Below are positions 1,983-11,233 of a DNA stretch of 35,887 nt, one piece after another; positions within the stretch are counted from its first letter, which is position 1; each line of letters starts with the position of its first letter. A program made the translations under genes and the position numbers. Source of the DNA: Acidimicrobiaceae bacterium (GTDB lineage Bacteria > Actinomycetota > Acidimicrobiia > Acidimicrobiales > Ilumatobacteraceae). Below the pieces are notes generated by a model, which searched no databases, had not been told where the DNA came from, and worked only from the letters and a program-made list of their open reading frames with translations. The stretch lies in the NCBI GenBank assembly GCA_947467375.1, contig CANIHL010000012.1, positions 1 through 35,887 of the forward strand. Reading direction: 5' to 3'.

Positions 1983-3238
1983 CCAAATACCGGCGCCCGC
2001 GCTCGCACTATGCGGTGCTCATATTCAACATTGCAATTGCCGCTTCATTGCTCATCGTTGGTGGTGGCCTGTTGTATGCAGGCCAGCGACTAGGTGCTCG
2101 TCAAGTTGTCAGTTTGAATCGTGGCGACGGCGTAGCCGTCAACGAAGACGCCAATATCGCTCCATCAGACCAATGGAACCTCAGCGAGGGCGACCTCGAC
2201 GCGAAGAACTTCCTCCTCACGGGCTCCGACAACGGCAGCTGTGTAGACCCAAATTCCCCATATGCAGGGGCTTTTGGTGACCGCACATCATTTGGCGAAC
2301 GCAGCGACACCATCATGATTATTCGGGTCAACCCGAAGGACAACCAAGCCGCATTTCTCTCGTTTCCACGCGACCTGTGGGTGAAGATTGCAGGATCAAC
2401 ACGATCGAACCGAATTAACACTGCATTCGAACGCAAGAACCCCAACACGCTTGCTGACACCATTTATCAAAACTTCGGAATCAACATTGATCACTACGTC
2501 AACATCGACTTTTGCGCCTTTAAAGAAATCGTGGATGCCGTTGGTGGAGTAAAGGTTCCATTTCTCTACGAAACCCGAGACAAGAAAACAGGTCTGTACG
2601 TTCCAGCACCGAGTTGCTTTGAGTTCAGCGGTGATCATGCACTCGCTTATGTGCGTTCACGCTCGGGTTATTCGTATTTTGACACCGCAAAAAATGCATG
2701 GGTTGCAGATGGAACTTCCGATCTCGGGCGAATTAGTCGCCAGCAAGACTTCATCCGCCGTGCAATGCAGCGTGCGCTCGACAAGGGATCATCAAGTCCC
2801 AAAGTTGCAAATCAACTCTTAAATGCAGCATTAAAGAACGTCATTACCGATGACCGGCTTACTCCTATCACCATGTTGCAACTTGCTCAAGCAATGCGCA
2901 ATTTGAACACCAGTGGAATTCCTACATACACAGTTGAAAGTTCCGGTCAAATGATTGGTGACCAAGCTGTACTTGTTCCGCGAATTCAAAACGACACCAT
3001 GCGCGAAATTCTTGCGCTGTTTCAAGGCAAGGCAAGTTTTGCAACACCTGGTTCTGCTGCGAACAATCCTTCGCCAGACGCCACTTCTGCCGAAGGAGCC
3101 ATGGGAGCAATTATTTCCACTGTCGCCTATTTGAATACACAACCAAGTAACGGTGTTACGCCTCCAACAATTCCTGTTGTTGCACCAGAACAAAACACCT
3201 ATGGCGTTTCGCCACCTAACGACCCAAGCTGTCGTTAG
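1979..3238 (+). CDS. LytR-CpsA-Psr (LCP) family cell-envelope protein
   Basis: LCP proteins are extracytoplasmic, membrane-anchored phosphotransferases that attach polyprenyl-linked glycopolymers to peptidoglycan. In actinobacteria they typically attach arabinogalactan-like or teichoic polymers. This 419-residue protein has a basic N-terminus, one membrane segment at about residues 11-33 and a linker. The LCP domain starts near residue 75 and shows RSDTIMIIRV (108-117), FPRDLWV with R131-D132, RINTAF with R145, the YVRSRS block (224-229) and GRISRQQDF (250-258). These match the conserved Arg/Asp residues that bind the pyrophosphate lipid. The C-terminal 120 residues are low in complexity (Pro, Thr, Asn, Ser) and hold no LytR_C domain; a separate LytR_C protein lies at 35137-35703. 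The start overlaps the valS stop. It converges with and overlaps the VWA gene by four bases. Confidence 0.9.
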   Translation: MTKYRRPRSHYAVLIFNIAIAASLLIVGGGLLYAGQRLGARQVVSLNRGDGVAVNEDANIAPSDQWNLSEGDLDAKNFLLTGSDNGSCVDPNSPYAGAFGDRTSFGERSDTIMIIRVNPKDNQAAFLSFPRDLWVKIAGSTRSNRINTAFERKNPNTLADTIYQNFGINIDHYVNIDFCAFKEIVDAVGGVKVPFLYETRDKKTGLYVPAPSCFEFSGDHALAYVRSRSGYSYFDTAKNAWVADGTSDLGRISRQQDFIRRAMQRALDKGSSSPKVANQLLNAALKNVITDDRLTPITMLQLAQAMRNLNTSGIPTYTVESSGQMIGDQAVLVPRIQNDTMREILALFQGKASFATPGSAANNPSPDATSAEGAMGAIISTVAYLNTQPSNGVTPPTIPVVAPEQNTYGVSPPNDPSCR

Positions 3239-4152
3239 TCAAGCACGCGACGCATAGCGTCGGGAATATCACTAGGACCACTCACTGTTGTAAACCGTGC
3301 TCCAACAGCATCGGCAAACGCTCGCGCCTCTGCATCATCTTCTAATGGTGCAATCACCACAAGTTCGTCCAACGACTTCGCTGCCGCTCGAGCATCGCCA
3401 TCTACTGTTGCTCGACAATCAGACAACAACACGGTGATTCGCCTGGATGCCCGCGAACGCGCAAGTTGCTCGCGCGATGCATGCAATGCTCCAGCCAAGT
3501 CGGTTGTGCCAAACCCCCGAAGCGCAAGCACGGTGTTCACCACGTCATCGCCAGACTTATGAACGTCTTGTGACTTCGCCGCAATTACGTCTTTTCCGAA
3601 TACCAGCACGCTGTAGTCAGCTGGCTCACGGGCAGCAATAGAGGCTGCAGCCATTGCCGAATTGGCAAGTGGCTTGCCACCCATTGAGCCACTGCGGTCC
3701 ACCACAAGGCTGATGGCTGTTCCTGGCTTCAACCATCCACGCACTCGCAACTCATCAGCATCTACAACACCAGTTGCGCGCAATTCGTTTAGCGCATCCA
3801 AGCTTGCATCAATATCAATGTCGCCAGCATCGGGTTGATATTTGCGCAGCGACATTTTCCCAATTCCGCGCGGTCGAGGTTTTCCACTTTGTGCCAGTTC
3901 AATCAAAATTCGTCCGGCAAGTTTTCGTGCGAGTTCACGTAATGCAGGGTCGGTTGCAGCTGTTAAGTCGGCAAGCATCGACAACGTTTCATCTGGCGAA
4001 TTCTGCATCGCCTCATCGAAAGCAACTTCGTCAAGTTCGCCAACTTCAGGAGAGATCTCTTCAAACCCTGAATGCTTCGACAATTCTTTGCGCGATGTGG
4101 TGCGCTTGCTTGCCTGCTGCGCTGCCTGTTCGGCCTGCGCGCCTTCTTTCAC
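3235..4152 (-). CDS. VWA-domain protein (CoxE/BchD-like), partner of MoxR ATPase
   Basis: The protein has 305 residues. Residues 1-145 are charged and helical, followed by a von Willebrand factor A domain with a complete MIDAS metal site: DRSGS at D152/S154/S156, a Thr near 216-217 in GFGTTDLAG, and Asp 245 in LLSDCRA. Proteins of this layout work with MoxR-type AAA+ ATPases as metal-dependent adaptors that help assemble or activate client enzymes, for example the CoxD-CoxE, Mox and NorQ-NorD pairs. It starts with GTG and shares one base with the stop of the upstream MoxR gene (TAGTG), so the two are translationally coupled. No signal peptide is visible, so it is probably cytosolic. The client is not shown by the sequence. 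The closest candidate is the alcohol dehydrogenase at the head of the same gene string. Confidence 0.85.
   Translation of the reverse strand: MKEGAQAEQAAQQASKRTTSRKELSKHSGFEEISPEVGELDEVAFDEAMQNSPDETLSMLADLTAATDPALRELARKLAGRILIELAQSGKPRPRGIGKMSLRKYQPDAGDIDIDASLDALNELRATGVVDADELRVRGWLKPGTAISLVVDRSGSMGGKPLANSAMAAASIAAREPADYSVLVFGKDVIAAKSQDVHKSGDDVVNTVLALRGFGTTDLAGALHASREQLARSRASRRITVLLSDCRATVDGDARAAAKSLDELVVIAPLEDDAEARAFADAVGARFTTVSGPSDIPDAMRRVLD
3248..3262. terminator. Small perfect hairpin at the end of convergent LCP and VWA genes
   Basis: CGACGC-ATA-GCGTCG forms a six-base-pair stem with a three-base loop ten bases after the LCP stop, inside the last codons of the VWA gene. No T-run follows on either strand, so a terminator role is weakly supported. 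Confidence 0.22.
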
Positions 4153-5096
4153 TAATGGGAGTTCGTTGCCCCAGTCGGGGCGCCAACTTTTCCCGCGTCG
4201 CCGTCTTCCGGCTTCACACCAAACACATCCGCGAAGATTTCAGTAATCACTTCTTCTGCGGTGCGCACATTTCCCTCGCGCAACTTCACCCGACCTGTAA
4301 GCGCCACAAGCGCACTGTCTAAGCCAATCGCAGTTGTTTCAACTGATGCATTGCGCATCGCCGACAAACTTGCAGCCACTACTGCGGTGTCAATGGCACC
4401 ACGGACCGATGAACCAAAACGCAAATCGGAATGATTACGAGTACGTCGCACCATTTCCACAACTAATGCCACCCAGTCACGCGACACCTTTGCCTTGCTG
4501 TTCTGTTTTGTGGTTTCGCGAATCACGATTTCTACTTCGTCTGCTGCGCTTTGATATGTCATTGCAACGCGACATACACGGTCATATACCGCACTTGAAA
4601 TACGCGCTGTGCCCACTGCATCAAATGGATTCATCGCTGCAACAAGCCGGAACCCAGCAGCGCTTTTCACGGTGCCAAGACGCGGAACCGTAATTTCACC
4701 TTCGCTCATCACAGTGATGAGCACGTTCAACGTTTCTTCCGGAATGCGATTGATTTCTTCTACATACAACAACGAACCATCACGCAATGCCGACACCAGT
4801 GGTCCATCAACAAATACGTCGGCGCTGTAGCCATCGGTCAGCACTCGTGCGGGGTCGAAGTGCCCAACCAAACGTGCTGGCGTAAGTTCTGCATTGCCTT
4901 CAACGAAGGCGAAACCTACGCCAAGTGCTTCGGCAACAGACCGCAAAAGCGTTGATTTTCCTGTACCTGGAGGGCCTTCTAACAAGATGTGGCGACCACC
5001 ATGCAATGCAGCGACGACAAGTTCTAGTTCGCGCGCGCGACCAACAACCGAAGCTGCCGAAACGCGAAGAACGTCGCTTGCCGACGCTGCTGCCAT
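4152..5096 (-). CDS. MoxR-family AAA+ ATPase
   Basis: This 314-residue AAA+ ATPase of the MoxR group acts as a chaperone that remodels or activates enzyme complexes together with VWA partners. Visible motifs are Walker A GPPGTGKST (41-49), Walker B LLYVEEINR (109-117), the sensor-1 region AAMNPFDAVG (153-162) and a C-terminal lid with DLRFGSSVRG. The length is normal for the family. The ATG start lies 12 bases after the stop of the alcohol dehydrogenase gene, and the end is coupled to the VWA gene, which gives the order ADH - MoxR - VWA. No good Shine-Dalgarno sequence or close TANNNT hexamer is seen before this start, consistent with a position inside an operon. The link to dehydrogenase maturation is inference from gene order and from the founding MoxR of methanol oxidation. 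Confidence 0.92.
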   Translation of the reverse strand: MAAASASDVLRVSAASVVGRARELELVVAALHGGRHILLEGPPGTGKSTLLRSVAEALGVGFAFVEGNAELTPARLVGHFDPARVLTDGYSADVFVDGPLVSALRDGSLLYVEEINRIPEETLNVLITVMSEGEITVPRLGTVKSAAGFRLVAAMNPFDAVGTARISSAVYDRVCRVAMTYQSAADEVEIVIRETTKQNSKAKVSRDWVALVVEMVRRTRNHSDLRFGSSVRGAIDTAVVAASLSAMRNASVETTAIGLDSALVALTGRVKLREGNVRTAEEVITEIFADVFGVKPEDGDAGKVGAPTGATNSH

Positions 5097-5108: not shown

Positions 5109-6221
5109 CTAGTCGAACTTAATAACGCCACGGATGTTTTCTCCGTCGCGCATTGCTCGGTAACCCTCGTTGATGTCGCTCAGTTTGTATTCCTTGGTGA
5201 CAAGACCGTCGAGGTCGAGCTGACCTTCGCGATATAGACCCATCAACTTTGGAATGTCCGAGCGTGGGTTGCCCGAACCAAACAACGAACCAACCAACTG
5301 CTTTTCCATCAACGTCAGGTCGAGCAAGCTCATGCCTGCACCGAACTCAGTTGCTGGGTGAATGTTGGTTACAACAACACGACCGCGCTTTGCAGTGAGT
5401 GCCATCGCTTCGTGAATAACTGCGCCGTTTCCAACGCCCATGGTCATGATCACTTTGTTGGCCATGGTTCCCCATGTGAGTTCTTGCAGCAGTGGCAATG
5501 CTTCAGCCATTGAGTTTGCAGTGTGTGTTGCACCGAACTCCATTGCCTTCTCACGCTTGAATTCCACTGGGTCAATTGCAACGATGCGCTTTGCACCAGC
5601 AATACGAGCACCCTGAATTGCGTTCGCACCAATTCCGCCGGCACCTACAACGACAACTGTGTCGCCAGGTTTTACTTCAGCGGCGTACACGCTTGATCCC
5701 CAACCGGTAACTACACCGCAACCGAGCAAGCACGCGCGGTCAAGAGGGACATCCTTTTCAATCTTGATGCAACTTGCTTCGTGCACAACCGTGTGTTCAG
5801 CAAATGTTCCAAGCAAGCACATAATGCCAACGTCTTTCCCGCCGGCATGGTGACGCGATGTTTGGTCACTGATTTGCTTTCCTGTTGCCATGAACGCACC
5901 AAGGTCGCACAAGTTTTGATGTCCAGTACTGCAACTGACGCAACGACCACATGACGGAATGAACCCGAACACCACGTGATCGCCAGGTGCTAGCCAACTG
6001 ACGTTCGATCCAACTTGTTGAACAACTCCAGCGCCTTCGTGGCCACCGATAATTGGCAATTCGAATGGCAAGTCACCCGTAACCAAGTGCTCATCGCTGT
6101 GACACATTCCAGAAGCGGCAAGTTTGACCAACACTTCGTTTGGACCTGGCGCATCAAGTTCAATTTCTTCGATTGTCCATGGAGCATTCAACTCCCACAA
6201 CACTGCTGCCTTTGTCTTCAC
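5109..6221 (-). CDS. NDMA-dependent (mycofactocin-linked) alcohol dehydrogenase
   Basis: This zinc-dependent medium-chain dehydrogenase of 370 residues oxidises alcohols with a tightly bound nicotinamide. Family members with this signature cannot exchange their NAD and were named for the artificial acceptor NDMA; mycofactocin is taken to be the natural acceptor. Visible are catalytic zinc ligands C40 with H61-E62 and C168 (LLGCGV), four structural-zinc cysteines (C91, C94, C97, C105), and the Rossmann glycine motif GAGGIG (193-198). The start is GTG with a strong Shine-Dalgarno GAGGGGG (bases 6227-6233) five bases upstream. The gene is divergent from the mycofactocin operon and heads the ADH-MoxR-VWA string. 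The family call rests on overall sequence resemblance and on the neighbouring mft genes. Confidence 0.92.
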   Translation of the reverse strand: MKTKAAVLWELNAPWTIEEIELDAPGPNEVLVKLAASGMCHSDEHLVTGDLPFELPIIGGHEGAGVVQQVGSNVSWLAPGDHVVFGFIPSCGRCVSCSTGHQNLCDLGAFMATGKQISDQTSRHHAGGKDVGIMCLLGTFAEHTVVHEASCIKIEKDVPLDRACLLGCGVVTGWGSSVYAAEVKPGDTVVVVGAGGIGANAIQGARIAGAKRIVAIDPVEFKREKAMEFGATHTANSMAEALPLLQELTWGTMANKVIMTMGVGNGAVIHEAMALTAKRGRVVVTNIHPATEFGAGMSLLDLTLMEKQLVGSLFGSGNPRSDIPKLMGLYREGQLDLDGLVTKEYKLSDINEGYRAMRDGENIRGVIKFD

Positions 6222-6233: not shown

Positions 6234-6328
6234 GTCACGGTCGCCAGGCGCAGGGTGCGTCGGCGAGATACTGGCTCTATTGTTGCCCAGCCATCGGCGC
6301 TGACGCTACCCCGAGCCCGCAGCCTGAG

Positions 6329-6334
6329 TACTGT
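6329..6334 (+). promoter_or_regulatory. -10 hexamer for a leaderless mftA transcript
   Basis: TACTGT lies eight bases before the mftA ATG (6343), and no Shine-Dalgarno sequence is at a usable distance. The spacing places transcription start at or next to the start codon. The remainder of the ~120-base divergent region (6222-6342) shows no convincing -35 box or operator palindrome. Confidence 0.45.
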
Positions 6335-6342
6335 GGACGGTG

Positions 6343-6492
6343 ATGGACACCACAGCACCACTAGCCGTAGATACCGCCCAGGCCCAGACTGCAAGCCACA
6401 ACAGCGTTTCCTCGGCAACCACCACACCGCACATCGTTGAAGAACTCCTCGTTGAGGAAATTTCTATCGACGGCATGTGTGGCGTGTACTAA
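6343..6492 (+). CDS. mftA: Mycofactocin precursor peptide MftA
   Basis: A 49-codon gene encodes a short peptide ending in the diagnostic C-terminus EEISIDGMCGVY. In the established pathway the last Val-Tyr is decarboxylated and cross-linked by MftC, then cut off by MftE to become the core of mycofactocin. The upstream part is an Ala/Thr/Ser-rich leader (MDTTAPLAVDTAQ...) and is longer than in the roughly 30-residue mycobacterial MftA; the acidic helix HIVEELLVEE before the core is typical. The ATG lies eight bases after a TANNNT hexamer and lacks a Shine-Dalgarno site, and an in-frame GTG sits directly before it at 6340. The stop is followed after 17 bases by mftB. The exact ending and the position just before mftB-mftC make the call very firm. 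Confidence 0.96.
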   Translation: MDTTAPLAVDTAQAQTASHNSVSSATTTPHIVEELLVEEISIDGMCGVY

Positions 6493-6509: not shown

Positions 6510-6779
6510 ATGACCGTCACCCTGGATTCAGCGTGTGAGTTGCACCCTCAAGTTGCACTTCGCCCAGAACCCTTCGGCGCACTTGCCTATCACTACGGCA
6601 ATCGCAAACTTGTTTTTTTAAAACACCCAGACGTTGTAGCTGTGCTGCGCGATGTAGCAGCACACGACACACTCGCTGACACCTTGGTTGCGCACAATGT
6701 TGCGCCAGAGCGTTGGAATTCATTTGTGAGCGCACTCAGCTCACTTGAGACATCGGAGATCATTCGTGTCCGTCAGTAA
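6510..6779 (+). CDS. mftB: Mycofactocin peptide chaperone MftB (RRE domain)
   Basis: This small protein of 89 residues belongs to the RiPP recognition element (PqqD-like) group. It binds the MftA leader and presents the peptide to MftC. The characteristic start LHPQVALRPEPFGALAYHYG is followed by KLVFLKHPDVVAVL, the beta-hairpin and helix of the fold. The ATG at 6510 is chosen because it gives the usual MftB length; an open GTG at 6477 would overlap mftA and add 11 unrelated residues. The last codons overlap the mftC start by 14 bases, and the C-terminal coding sequence carries the mftC ribosome binding site. It acts in the cytosol as a complex with MftC. Confidence 0.93.
   Translation: MTVTLDSACELHPQVALRPEPFGALAYHYGNRKLVFLKHPDVVAVLRDVAAHDTLADTLVAHNVAPERWNSFVSALSSLETSEIIRVRQ
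6755..6758 (+). promoter_or_regulatory. Shine-Dalgarno site that fixes the mftC GTG start
   Basis: GGAG lies seven bases before GTG 6766, inside the end of mftB. It supports the GTG start and translational coupling over the ATG further upstream at 6745. Confidence 0.6.
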
Positions 6780-7887
6780 CTTAACCACACAACTCAAGGG
6801 CGGGCTTGACGCGCCAATTTGTTTGACATGGGAACTCACCTATGCCTGCAACTTGCAGTGCATCCATTGTTTGTCCAGCAGCGGTCGTCGCGACCCTCGC
6901 GAGCTCGACACCGATCAAGTGAAGAATGTGCTCGATCAATTACGCGACTTGCAAGTGTTCTACATCAACATCGGTGGCGGCGAGCCAATGATTCGCAAAG
7001 ACTTCTTCGAGATTCTTGAACATGCCGAGCACAACAACATTGGCGTGAAGTTTTCCACCAACGGCACATACATCACTGCAGAAAATGCGAAGCGCCTTGC
7101 TTCCATGAACTACCTCGATATTCAAATCAGCATGGACGGCGTTGACCGTGCAACAAATGACGCCGTGCGTGGTGAAGGTTCGTTCGACACATCTATTGCT
7201 GCAATGAACCACTTGCGTGATGCAAACTTCGGGCCGTTCAAAATTTCTGTAGTCATGACCCGACACAACGTTGATCAGCTCGATGCTTTCAAACAACTTG
7301 CAGATAGCTACGGCGCGCAACTCCGTATCACGCGCTTGCGTCCTGCGGGACGTGGTGCAGATACATGGAATGAATTGCACCCAACTCAAACTCAACAGCG
7401 ACAGATCTATAACTGGCTTATTGCACATGGCGACAACGTGCTTACTGGCGACTCGTTCTTCCATCTCAATGCATTTGGTGAATCGCTTCCAGGTTTGAAC
7501 TTATGTGGCGCTGGTCGCGTGGTGTGCCTCATCGACCCAATTGGCGATGTATACGCGTGCCCTTTCGTGATTCACGATCAATTCAAAGCAGGCTCGGTGC
7601 ACGATGAGGGCGGTTTTGCGAACGTGTGGCGAAACAGTGATCTTTTCCTCTCGCTACGCGAACCAGAGTCCGAAGGTGCGTGCACGTCGTGCGGTAACTA
7701 TGACTCATGCCAAGGCGGTTGCATGGCAGCAAAGTTCTTTACTGGTTTGCCACTCGATGGCCCAGACCCTGAATGTGTAATAGGTGCAGGCGAATCGCTA
7801 CTGAAGAGCGCAACCGTGACCCTCATTCCAAAACCGAGCATGGACCATTCGCGTAAAGTTTCGGTAACTACTGGGGGAAATAAGTAA
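6766..7887 (+). CDS. mftC: Mycofactocin radical SAM maturase MftC
   Basis: This radical SAM-SPASM enzyme of 373 residues performs oxidative decarboxylation of the MftA C-terminal Tyr, then forms the Val-Tyr carbon-carbon link. The radical SAM cluster is C28-x3-C32-x2-C35 in TYACNLQCIHC. The GGEP motif follows (YINIGGGEPM). The C-terminal SPASM region has many cysteines (LCGAGRVVCLIDPIGDVYACP, then CTSCGNYDSCQGGC and PECV) for auxiliary Fe-S clusters. The GTG start at 6766 has a GGAG site seven bases upstream and overlaps the end of mftB. The stop shares one base with the plsY start (TAATG). All expected ligands are present, so the enzyme appears intact. Confidence 0.96.
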   Translation: MSVSNLTTQLKGGLDAPICLTWELTYACNLQCIHCLSSSGRRDPRELDTDQVKNVLDQLRDLQVFYINIGGGEPMIRKDFFEILEHAEHNNIGVKFSTNGTYITAENAKRLASMNYLDIQISMDGVDRATNDAVRGEGSFDTSIAAMNHLRDANFGPFKISVVMTRHNVDQLDAFKQLADSYGAQLRITRLRPAGRGADTWNELHPTQTQQRQIYNWLIAHGDNVLTGDSFFHLNAFGESLPGLNLCGAGRVVCLIDPIGDVYACPFVIHDQFKAGSVHDEGGFANVWRNSDLFLSLREPESEGACTSCGNYDSCQGGCMAAKFFTGLPLDGPDPECVIGAGESLLKSATVTLIPKPSMDHSRKVSVTTGGNK

Positions 7888-8525
7888 TGGACTTTTCACT
7901 GAACGGCGTCGAGCCGATCTATGTTGCAGGCGCAATTATTGTGTCCTACTTTCTCGGCACCATCCCAAGCGCACTCATCGTTGCCAAGCGCGGAGGCGTC
8001 GATGTAACCGCTGAAGGTTCTGGCAACCCTGGAACGTCAAACGTGGTTCGTCTTCTCGGTTGGAAGTACGGGCTCGTGGTGTTTGTATCCGACGTATTGA
8101 AAGGTTCGGCCTCTGTGGGCCTTGCGTACTACCTCACACATCACTTTGGTGACGGTCTTAACGTTTCATACTTGGCTTATGCATGTGCATACGCGGCAGT
8201 GCTTGGCCACACGTTCCCCATCACCCGTGGTTTCCACGGCGGTAAAGGCGTGGCAACTGGCGGTGGAACCATGTTTGTGCTGTACCCAGTGATGAGCGCT
8301 GTGCTGTGCACGTCATGGTTCGTGTTGCGCAAACTCACGGGCAAGTCTGCACTTGCATCACTCATCATCACTATTGCTGTACCTGTGTATGTCATTGCCA
8401 CTGTTGGATTCGGCGAACCAGACTCGTGGCAAATTGCTGCCGTACTTGGACTCGTTAGCATGATCATCATTCGACACCTGCCAAACATTCGACGCATGCG
8501 CGCGAACGAGGAACTTGCCGCGTAA
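7887..8525 (+). CDS. plsY: PlsY-family acyl-phosphate:glycerol-3-phosphate acyltransferase
   Basis: This is an integral membrane enzyme of 212 residues with about five to seven hydrophobic segments. PlsY transfers an acyl chain from acyl-phosphate to glycerol-3-phosphate, the first step of phospholipid synthesis. Three family motifs are visible: SYFLGTIPSALIVAK near the N-terminus, GSGNPGTSNVVRLLG (canonical GSGNIGATN), and GHTFPITRGFHGGKGVATGGG. The ATG shares a base with the mftC stop (TAATG) and follows a GGGGGAA stretch, so it is translated with the mycofactocin operon. No plsX is nearby. Motif 2 differs at two positions from the usual text, so this may be a paralogue with altered acyl or acceptor preference. 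Its location between mftC and mftE is unusual. Confidence 0.88.
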   Translation: MDFSLNGVEPIYVAGAIIVSYFLGTIPSALIVAKRGGVDVTAEGSGNPGTSNVVRLLGWKYGLVVFVSDVLKGSASVGLAYYLTHHFGDGLNVSYLAYACAYAAVLGHTFPITRGFHGGKGVATGGGTMFVLYPVMSAVLCTSWFVLRKLTGKSALASLIITIAVPVYVIATVGFGEPDSWQIAAVLGLVSMIIIRHLPNIRRMRANEELAA

Positions 8526-8546: not shown

Positions 8547-9161
8547 ATGATTTCGCTCATCACTGAGTTCTTCAATGGGCTTAAGGATTTTTCCGATTCC
8601 TATTGGTTTTACGTCATCATCTTTGTTATCGCGGTACTCGATTCCGTGATTCCAATCGTGCCAAGCGAAACATTGGTCATCATTGGTGGAGTTAGTGCTG
8701 GCTCGGGTTCGCTGTCACTTGGACTCGTGCTTTTGTGTGCAACTACAGGCGCATTTATTGGTGACCACGTTTCATACGAAATTGGGAAAAAGGCAAGCGC
8801 GTTTGTTACCCGTCGCTATGAACGAACAGAAAAGGGTGCGAAGCGTTTGAATGCAGTTATTCACCACATCAATGAACGTGGTGGATTACTACTTGTGACT
8901 GCACGCTTCATTCCAGGAGGTCGAACGATCTTGACCCTGACTTGCGGAATTACCCACCAACGCCAACGATGGTTTTCGGGTTGGATTGCCGTCGCCACAA
9001 TCATTTGGGCAACCTATGCGTCATTGCTTGGTTTTATTGGCGGAAAGACATTTGCTGACAATCACACGTTGGCCTTTACCTTTGCCTTTGGCTGTGCAAT
9101 TGGGGTTACCGCGGTTATTGAACTTGTGCGTTTCATTTTGAAAAAACGCAAGTCACAATGA
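8547..9161 (+). CDS. DedA-family membrane protein
   Basis: The protein has 204 residues and several membrane segments. DedA proteins are now linked to moving lipids such as undecaprenyl phosphate or phosphatidylethanolamine across the membrane. Conserved charged positions are visible: the Glu in IVPSETLV, the Asp in GAFIGDHVSYEIGKK, and the two Arg of TARFIPGGRTILTLT, followed by the C-terminal aromatic helix. It lies 21 bases after plsY and 3 bases before mftE, so it is part of the mycofactocin gene string. No Shine-Dalgarno sequence is obvious before the ATG. The substrate cannot be told from sequence. Pairing with plsY hints at a membrane-lipid module. Confidence 0.85.
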   Translation: MISLITEFFNGLKDFSDSYWFYVIIFVIAVLDSVIPIVPSETLVIIGGVSAGSGSLSLGLVLLCATTGAFIGDHVSYEIGKKASAFVTRRYERTEKGAKRLNAVIHHINERGGLLLVTARFIPGGRTILTLTCGITHQRQRWFSGWIAVATIIWATYASLLGFIGGKTFADNHTLAFTFAFGCAIGVTAVIELVRFILKKRKSQ

Positions 9162-9164
9162 GGC

Positions 9165-9842
9165 ATGCCTAGTTCGCCAACGTGGCCTGAAATTCCACGC
9201 AATGCATGTGTAGTCATTCCCGTTGGCTCATACGAACAACACGGTCCACACCTACCGCTTGACACTGATACGCAAATTGCATCGCACCTGTGTACCGCTG
9301 CCGCAATAGGTATCGACCGCGTCATTATTGGCCCGCCACTGTCAATCACCGCCAGCGGCGAGCATGCAGGATTTCCAGGCACCATTTCTATTGGCACCGA
9401 TGCTCTCGTCACGGTGATCGTGGAACTAGTTCGGTCATGCGACTGGGCAAGCGGCGTGATCCTGGCGCATGGTCACGGTGGAAACGTAGAAGCGGTAAAA
9501 CGAGCAACAACGTTATTGCTTTCTGAGCAACGCAACGTTGCCAATTGGTGGCCACACATTCAGGGTGCTGATGCTCATGCTGGGCACACAGAGACTTCAT
9601 TGATGATGGCAATTAATCCGCGCCTTGTTCGTATGGACAAATTGGACATCGGCAATGTGCAACCAATGAGTGAAATACAACGTGATCTTCAAACCAGCGG
9701 CGTCCAGGCAGTAAGCCCAAATGGCATTCTTGGTAACGCTCGCACAGCAACCGCAAAACATGGTGAACAACTGGTCGCAATGCTGACTGAAGATCTACGC
9801 GCATTCATACATGCCACTTGCCAGCAATGGAACAATGCGTGA
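9165..9842 (+). CDS. mftE: Mycofactocin peptidase MftE (creatininase family)
   Basis: MftE is a metal-dependent amidohydrolase that releases the modified Val-Tyr dipeptide (AHDP) from processed MftA. This 225-residue protein shows the creatininase metal ligands: EQHGPHLPLDTD (E24, H26, D33, D35), GEHAGFPGTISIG, LAHGHGGN and DAHAGHTETSLM. It starts 3 bases after dedA, and its TGA overlaps the mftF GTG (GTGA). In most mycofactocin loci mftE directly follows mftD; here dedA precedes it. A generic creatininase is the alternative, but the mftC and mftF context makes MftE by far the best call. Confidence 0.92.
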   Translation: MPSSPTWPEIPRNACVVIPVGSYEQHGPHLPLDTDTQIASHLCTAAAIGIDRVIIGPPLSITASGEHAGFPGTISIGTDALVTVIVELVRSCDWASGVILAHGHGGNVEAVKRATTLLLSEQRNVANWWPHIQGADAHAGHTETSLMMAINPRLVRMDKLDIGNVQPMSEIQRDLQTSGVQAVSPNGILGNARTATAKHGEQLVAMLTEDLRAFIHATCQQWNNA

Positions 9843-11233
9843 CAAGCGCAGTTCGCTTCATCGCCGACAGTTCGTGGCGTCGGCCAGCAAACGGAAATGT
9901 TGTTCTGGCCGGTTCGCCACTGAAGTTGTTTTCCCTTTCGCAAGCCGGTCAGGCAATTGCCGAATGCATTGAGCGTGCACAGACTCTTCCTGTAGGTCAT
10001 GAAGTCCTCACTGAACGATTGCTTGATGCTGGAGCAATTCACCCAGTTCCAAGCACAGTCGATTCTGCTCGCTTTGTGCTCAACACCATTACTGCAGTTA
10101 TTCCTGCCTGCATTCGCACTGCTCAAGAAGCAGAATCACTGCAGTCGCTCGTTACCTCATGCTCAGCACTGCATGGTGTTGTCGTCGTCGATGACTGCTC
10201 GCCACATGCACTTCCCAATCTTGGTGCGGCACGGGTAATCCGTCTCGAAAAGAACAGTGGACCCGCTGCCGCACGCAATGCAGGTTTGGCGGTGGTTGAT
10301 ACTCAATTCATTGCCTATATCGATGTCGATGTGGCGATTTCCTCCAACACCATTTCTCAACTCCTGCCCTACTTTTCAGACGACAAAGTAGCCTTCGTTG
10401 CGCCACGAGTGAAATCGCCTGCAACTACTTCTGTTCTTGGTGAATATGAAGTCGCCGCGAGTGTGCTCGACATGGGCGAAACCGAGGCTCGTGTGCGTGC
10501 TGGAACTCGCGTCAGTTATGTGCCGTCTGCAATGTGGTTGTGTCGAACTGCAGCACTGCGGTCACTTTCTGGTTTTGATGAATCGCTTCGTTCTGGCGAA
10601 GACGTCGACATGGTGTGGCGCCTCAATGCCGCGGGCTGGCGCTGTCGCTACCAACCACAAGCTGAGTGTTCGCATTCGCCTCGCACCACGTTGCAGAAAT
10701 TTGTGCAACAACGCATGTCGTACGGAGAATCGGCGGCACCGCTTGCAAAACGACATCCTGGAAAACTCGCGCCTGCAACATTCAATCTCTGGCAGACATC
10801 AACATGGCTCTTAGTACTGCTCGGATTGCCATTCATTGCACTGGGAGTCGCAATTGCGGCGTCAGCATCTACTGCAAAAAAGTTGCGAAGGTTTCCACAA
10901 TTGCGCGATGAGAGTTTCCGCATCGCTTTGCACGGAATGGTAAAAAGCGCTCAATCTGCAGCGAGCGCCATCAACCGCGTGTGGTGGCCAATTGCATTTA
11001 TTCTTGCATTATTTTCACAACGCCTAAGAGTGCTCTTTATCGTTGCAGCACTCGGGCCTGCCGTATACGAATGGTGGACAAAGCGCCCGCATCTTGATGT
11101 TGTGCGTTTTGCGCTGATCAAAATGTTGGACAACGCCGCTTACGGAGCTGGCGTATGGAAAGGCGTGATTGCTACGCGAACTATCGCGCCACTTATTCCT
11201 ACAGTGAAGAAGTCTGCAACGAACGAGGAGTGA
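9839..11233 (+). CDS. mftF: Mycofactocin glycosyltransferase MftF
   Basis: This GT2-type glycosyltransferase of 464 residues decorates (pre)mycofactocin with a beta-1,4-linked glucose chain. Residues 1-75 form a winged-helix-like segment (SLSQAGQAIAECIERAQ, then RLLDAGAIHPVP) that resembles an RRE or PqqD fold. The GT-A domain follows, with VVVDDCSPHALP, LEKNSGPAAARNAGL, IDVDVAIS and the acceptor motif GEDVDMVWRLNAAGWRC. The C-terminus carries hydrophobic stretches (WLLVLLGLPFIALGVAIA and FILALFSQRLRVLFIVAALG), so it is probably membrane-associated. GTG 9839 is preferred because it gives a GTGA overlap with mftE; ATGs at 9818 and 9827 are open alternatives. The end overlaps the convergent DUF4395 gene by 35 bases. 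Confidence 0.92.
   Translation: MTSAVRFIADSSWRRPANGNVVLAGSPLKLFSLSQAGQAIAECIERAQTLPVGHEVLTERLLDAGAIHPVPSTVDSARFVLNTITAVIPACIRTAQEAESLQSLVTSCSALHGVVVVDDCSPHALPNLGAARVIRLEKNSGPAAARNAGLAVVDTQFIAYIDVDVAISSNTISQLLPYFSDDKVAFVAPRVKSPATTSVLGEYEVAASVLDMGETEARVRAGTRVSYVPSAMWLCRTAALRSLSGFDESLRSGEDVDMVWRLNAAGWRCRYQPQAECSHSPRTTLQKFVQQRMSYGESAAPLAKRHPGKLAPATFNLWQTSTWLLVLLGLPFIALGVAIAASASTAKKLRRFPQLRDESFRIALHGMVKSAQSAASAINRVWWPIAFILALFSQRLRVLFIVAALGPAVYEWWTKRPHLDVVRFALIKMLDNAAYGAGVWKGVIATRTIAPLIPTVKKSATNEE

Follow-up and report, generated by a model that had tools for sequence, protein, structure and literature searches.

The 49-codon reading frame at positions 6343 to 6492 of the forward strand of the window (the whole 35,887-nucleotide stretch of DNA analysed here) is, judged by its sequence and setting, a genuine mycofactocin precursor gene and an ordinary member of the MftA family, and its long N-terminal leader is very unlikely to be the product of a wrong start. 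This leader is long when compared with that of M. smegmatis but ordinary in length within its own family; its Ala/Thr/Ser-rich, acid-poor make-up is the rarer trait. We consider it highly probable that the gene encodes a genuine precursor, is transcribed from a start at or near its ATG and supplies the standard Mft route, with the extension acting as a spacer. The features concerned are the following:

5109 to 6221, reverse strand: divergent gene for an NDMA-dependent alcohol dehydrogenase (TIGR03989, 562.2 bits, cut-off 440)
6301 to 6308, forward strand: TGACGCTA box, of which 17 of 20 genus loci have the same or a near form, 42 to 44 nt ahead of the mftA ATG
6329 to 6334, forward strand: TACTGT, a -10-like box that ends 8 nt before the mftA ATG; a leaderless mRNA is predicted
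6340 to 6342, forward strand: GTG, an alternative in-frame start directly before the ATG, shared by 8 of the 10 genus members whose gene has 49 codons
6343 to 6492, forward strand: mftA, 49 codons and stop; leader extension in codons 1 to 32, conserved block with the Val-Tyr core in codons 33 to 49
6510 to 6779, forward strand: mftB, peptide chaperone or recognition element (TIGR03967, 90.9 bits, cut-off 33)
6766 to 7887, forward strand: mftC, radical SAM maturase (TIGR03962, 592.9 bits, cut-off 265)
7887 to 8525, forward strand: plsY-like acyltransferase gene (PF02660, 141.9 bits; TIGR00023, 131.4 bits, just below the cut-off of 137.2)
8547 to 9161, forward strand: gene for a DedA-like membrane protein (PF09335 VTT domain, 68 bits)
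9165 to 9842, forward strand: mftE, peptidase (TIGR03964, 263.2 bits, cut-off 172)
9818 to 11233, forward strand: mftF, glycosyltransferase (TIGR03965, 383.5 bits, cut-off 280)

The translation of the frame is MDTTAPLAVDTAQAQTASHNSVSSATTTPHIVEELLVEEISIDGMCGVY, i.e., 49 residues and a stop, with the C-terminus IDGMCGVY. In profile searches, the product scores 53.8 bits against TIGR03969 (cut-off 25, E 1.2e-14) and 52.5 bits against PF23709 (cut-off 27), and the PF23709 model gives a match in none of 14 control genomes; since both scores exceed their cut-offs and the control genomes are empty, the frame is not a chance one. Both curated cut-offs are thus exceeded, the IDGxCGVY motif with terminal Val-Tyr, given as the MftA C-terminal motif in the available text of PMC5264612, is present, and mftB and mftC adjoin. 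It is the sole MftA match in its genome, an assembly of 1.68 Mb in 101 contigs that is about 92% complete. An mftA match is present in 20 of the 23 genomes of the genus, the three others being 55–67% complete. The mftA frame is open in all 20 of these loci, and the remaining five frames are open in 1, 4, 5, 5, and 8 of the 20; another reading frame as the coding one was therefore rejected, as none stays open in more than 8. The scores and the translation bear out the initial annotation, which had named this small gene mftA from its IDGMCGVY end, and we share its view that such a gene is easily overlooked. Its further claim, that mftA is direct proof of the radical SAM gene being MftC, is too strong: the MftC score far above the cut-off stands by itself, and the adjacent mftA is corroboration of that predicted identity, not proof of activity.

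The order mftB–mftC–plsY–dedA–mftE–mftF, searched by tblastn with the proteins of the window, recurs in 18 of the 19 genus loci whose flanks are long enough, the nineteenth being without an mftE match, and the plsY-like and DedA/VTT genes follow mftC in all 19. In two loci, L171 (G019) and L236 (G023), no mftE match by tblastn lies between dedA and mftF, the neighbours being present. Twelve of the 27 other family loci were retrieved with about 3–6 kb of downstream DNA; by tblastn, plsY follows mftC in 10 of them, accompanied by dedA in 3, and mftE is matched in 3 and mftD in none. To our knowledge, neither PlsY nor DedA has been linked to mycofactocin. The accessible part of PMC3023750 contains neither word. 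On the other side of mftA, the divergent alcohol dehydrogenase, a likely user of mycofactocin, is encoded in 19 of the 20 genus loci; the exception, G005, has its contig start just upstream. Beyond it, on the reverse strand at 3235–5096, lie genes for a MoxR-type AAA ATPase and a von Willebrand factor A/CoxE-like protein; their tblastn matches beside the dehydrogenase gene number 18 and 16 of 20 genus loci, respectively, some loci being cut by the ends of contigs or stretches. Two loci, L069 and L113, from records labelled Competibacteraceae and Chloroflexales, carry an MftA-like peptide about 0.9 kb before, and not adjoining, an MftB match.

The mftD gene is absent from the cluster and lies on another contig (G000:C10:15960-17111; 687.5 bits, cut-off 470.85), and a broken pathway was rejected on this ground. 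The pathway calls for mftD, mftE, and mftF in the genome; all three are found, the latter two in the window. In the stretch around mftD (L147:872-7857, on the same contig), mftD directly follows a gene for an MttB-like methyltransferase (TIGR02369, 356.8 bits, below the cut-off of 525) and a GcvT/sarcosine-oxidase-like gene that is below all cut-offs. All six further genus loci that were checked have an MttB match on the same side of mftD. The gene following mftD, which we take by eye to be metallo-beta-lactamase-like, is matched in two of those six. These neighbours hint at a tie between mycofactocin and the breakdown of methylated amines. No protein of the roughly 92% complete genome reaches the MftR cut-off (TIGR03968; best 44.7 bits, cut-off 224.9), which leaves membership of the pathway possible, because, according to the text seen of PMC3023750, not all mycofactocin species have the TetR family. 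The genome gives no match over the cut-off of the MftG model TIGR04542, and two GMC proteins tested against three MftG models are below all cut-offs, one of them exceeding the cut-off for choline dehydrogenase.

Leader length and composition were compared across 193 of 194 loci examined, L235 (G402) having been dropped by the C-terminal motif filter despite ending in ISIDGMCGVY. The locus set leaves out the matches in G028, G035, G040, and G042 and the sub-cut-off matches in G185 and G312, and genome G328 contributes two loci. The set of named loci is the best 80 of 425; five of the 80 duplicate unnamed loci exactly, and two of these five belong to the genus. In the genus, 15 of 20 loci have a called MftA of 42–49 residues, and the other five have 44, their ATG lying behind a 9-nt gap; these five were left uncalled at a gap of 6–8 nt because the box is 9 nt away. 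The called lengths are 33–57 in the other family loci (median 43, 26 of 27 called), 10 of which reach 45 and 4 of which reach 49; 30–60 in the rest of the class (median 41, 56 of 66 called); and 29–63 in the named set, the best 80 of 425 (median 38, 67 of 75 called without duplicates). An extension at least as long occurs in 22 of 149 scored loci outside the genus, the named ones therein being the best 80 of 425. The MftA of M. smegmatis has 31 residues (PMC7491314, as far as its text was available). The description of the leader as unusually long in the initial annotation therefore holds against mycobacteria and fails within the family. Its description of the leader as low in complexity and rich in Ala, Thr, and Ser is upheld: these residues make up 55% of residues 2–32, against a median of 33% in 149 leaders from outside the genus (duplicates removed; named loci being the best 80 of 425), 4 of which reach 55%. 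This recount of 4/149, with 19 further loci unscored, replaces 6/154, because the latter had counted two duplicate genus members as outside the genus. Asp and Glu form 6% of the leader, against a median of 26%, and none of the 149 outside-genus leaders, with the same best 80 of 425 named loci, is as low.

Directly before the ATG, the sequence TA[CT]TGT occurs at a distance of 6–9 nt in all 20 genus loci, the bases between box and ATG being variable; in five of them, the gap is 9 nt, and the 44-codon ATG was taken as the start, other in-frame starts being available. More generally, 25 of the 27 other family loci have TANNNT 6–8 nt ahead of the called ATG, and TANNNT precedes 1 of 26 other in-frame candidate starts in the family. 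Over 8685 upstream control positions, TANNNT occurs at a rate of 0.035 and Shine-Dalgarno words at 0.043, and TANNNT occupies 9 of 2600 positions upstream of the family loci. Where several starts are available, the calls favour ATG and rely on the very motifs that are later counted, a circularity from which 52 single-start loci (48 without duplicates) are free, 'single start' disregarding starts that give fewer than 23 residues. Among these, TANNNT at a gap of 6–8 nt is found in 3 of 3 loci of the genus, 9 of 9 in the rest of the family, and 5 of 20 elsewhere in the class, placing the -10-like box outside the family as well, and in 6 of 20 named loci, the best 80 of 425 (4 of 16 without duplicates). 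Shine-Dalgarno-like words precede 1 of 3, 0 of 9, and 14 of 20 starts in the same groups and 13 of 20 in the named loci, again from the best 80 of 425 (10 of 16 without duplicates); one genus member, G014, also has GGAGA before the ATG. A suitably placed -10-like box without a Shine-Dalgarno word was taken to predict a leaderless mRNA, and the mftA of the window has TACTGT at a gap of 8 nt and no such word before its ATG. In M. smegmatis, TANNNT is the preferred -10 element, located at about -13 to -6 from the transcript start, with no conserved -35 motif (available text of PMC6448022), and in M. marinum a leader of 0–3 nt is functionally leaderless (PMC8022548, in the part accessible, where nothing on mftA was found). 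No paper on mycofactocin together with the term Acidimicrobi was found in the literature collection searched. A leaderless mftA mRNA is thus the likeliest reading of the upstream sequence, and with the 8-nt gap its 5' end would coincide with the ATG only for a spacing at the upper end of the range.

Whether the leader is as long as predicted depends on the start codon. Back to the preceding stop, only two in-frame starts lie 5' of the conserved core, GTG 6340 and ATG 6343, and from codon 1 to the core there is no in-frame ATG, GTG, or TTG. Haft et al. (PMC3023750, in the text available) found the sequence preceding the last 23 residues to be extremely diverse and suspected start-calling errors, and across the 193 loci conservation does drop upstream of about -17; a true peptide of about 25–31 residues made from an internal or unusual start nevertheless appears very improbable here, and we give it next to no weight, since it would have to do without any standard codon, whereas the extension evolves as protein and the promoter-like box abuts ATG 6343. 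The 49-codon gene is kept without indels in the window and nine other genus members, the nine being 88–98% identical; over codons 2–32 of these ten, pS is 0.244, pN 0.081, and dN/dS, from pairwise counts without a tree, 0.29, and over codons 33–49 pN is 0, with no amino-acid change. The ratio indicates that the extension is translated and moderately constrained. Given that no shorter standard start exists, that the extension evolves as protein, and that the box fixes the start, the long leaders of this lineage are very likely real. The choice left by the initial annotation between a conserved extension and an internal start is largely settled in favour of the former, which is under purifying selection in the ten genus members. 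Initiation at GTG 6340, giving 50 residues, is distinctly improbable: the codon is in frame and adjoins the ATG, and most of the ten genus members have it, but it reads GTA in G002 and CCA in G014, whereas all ten have the ATG. It is unlikely, on the sequence evidence, that the transcript has an ordinary 5' leader lacking a Shine-Dalgarno motif and that the TACTGT before the ATG is not the -10 element used. In favour of such a leader, a second TA[CT]TGT lies 65 nt before the ATG, and no -35-like hexamer was identified at the usual distance from the proximal TACTGT, the first six bases of TGACGCTA ending 22 nt before it; but the distal box, at -65 or -66, is missing from 7 of 20 genus loci, and TANNNT persists near the ATG throughout the 20 and in 25 of the 27 loci from the rest of the family, despite changing surroundings. 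The TGACGCTA box sits too far from TACTGT to be a usual -35 box; as MftR was not found over its cut-off, it may perhaps be a regulator site.

On the preferred reading of a leaderless mRNA with a genuine long leader, transcription would very likely begin at or a few nucleotides from the ATG, driven by TACTGT, leaving almost no 5' untranslated region, and the ribosome would start at ATG 6343. In the mycobacterial route, as given in the available parts of PMC7491314 and PMC8728441, MftB binds MftA, MftC decarboxylates and cyclises the Val-Tyr, and the core, once freed by MftE, is oxidised by MftD and glycosylated by MftF. The same route is postulated here because genes over the cut-off for MftB, MftC, MftE, MftD, and MftF are all present. 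By this analogy, the 49-mer would be bound by MftB and passed to MftC for decarboxylation and cyclisation of the C-terminal Val-Tyr, after which MftE would cut off the core, MftD, encoded on the other contig, would oxidise it, and MftF would glycosylate it. In the alignment of the 193 loci, where the G005 row is blank owing to a contig start a short distance upstream, invariance extends to the last four residues, to G, D, I, and S at -6 to -9, and to E at -12; the C-terminal motif filter builds in part of this invariance. The enzymes probably face the conserved 17-residue block, and the N-terminal extension would be discarded with the leader; it most likely serves as an unstructured, soluble spacer whose sequence is only loosely constrained. 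That the extension has its own function, for instance as a second docking site for MftB, is unlikely; the dN/dS of 0.29 and the unusual composition speak for it, but beyond the ten genus members the extension differs from locus to locus in both length and sequence, and the last 17 residues remain constant. The more specific proposal of a clade-specific recognition element under purifying selection, through which MftA would dock either on MftB or on a complex near the membrane together with the PlsY- and DedA-like proteins of the operon, is quite unlikely.

Haft et al. in 2011 gave predicted MftA lengths of 34–78 and ascribed the extended, unalignable N-termini largely to wrong starts (PMC3023750), and a later paper gave 30–80 residues with poor conservation outside the C-terminus (PMC5264612), in the portions of both that were available. 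For the mftA of the window, the wrong-start account appears to fail. Gene callers should leave the long MftA leaders of this lineage untrimmed, and the part of MftA that is read by the enzymes may shrink to roughly the final 17 residues. Predicted to be leaderless, the mftA of the family contrasts with the Shine-Dalgarno-like mftA genes in much of the rest of the class. With the M. smegmatis MftA, the peptide of the window shares the IDGMCGVY end, the matches to TIGR03969 and PF23709, mftB and mftC directly 3', and an alcohol dehydrogenase of a mycofactocin-linked family beside the cluster. However, it is 18 residues longer, its extension is Ala/Thr/Ser-rich and Asp/Glu-poor, and a promoter-like box stands directly before its ATG; its cluster differs in that mftD lies outside it, plsY- and dedA-like genes are found between mftC and mftE, and no MftR exceeds the cut-off. 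The 27 other MftA loci of the family share the TANNNT box (25 of 27), the length range of 33–57, and, in 10 of the 12 loci with long flanks, the plsY-like gene after mftC, yet a DedA match follows plsY in only 3 of those 12, and their extension sequence differs from that of the window and its close relatives in the genus.
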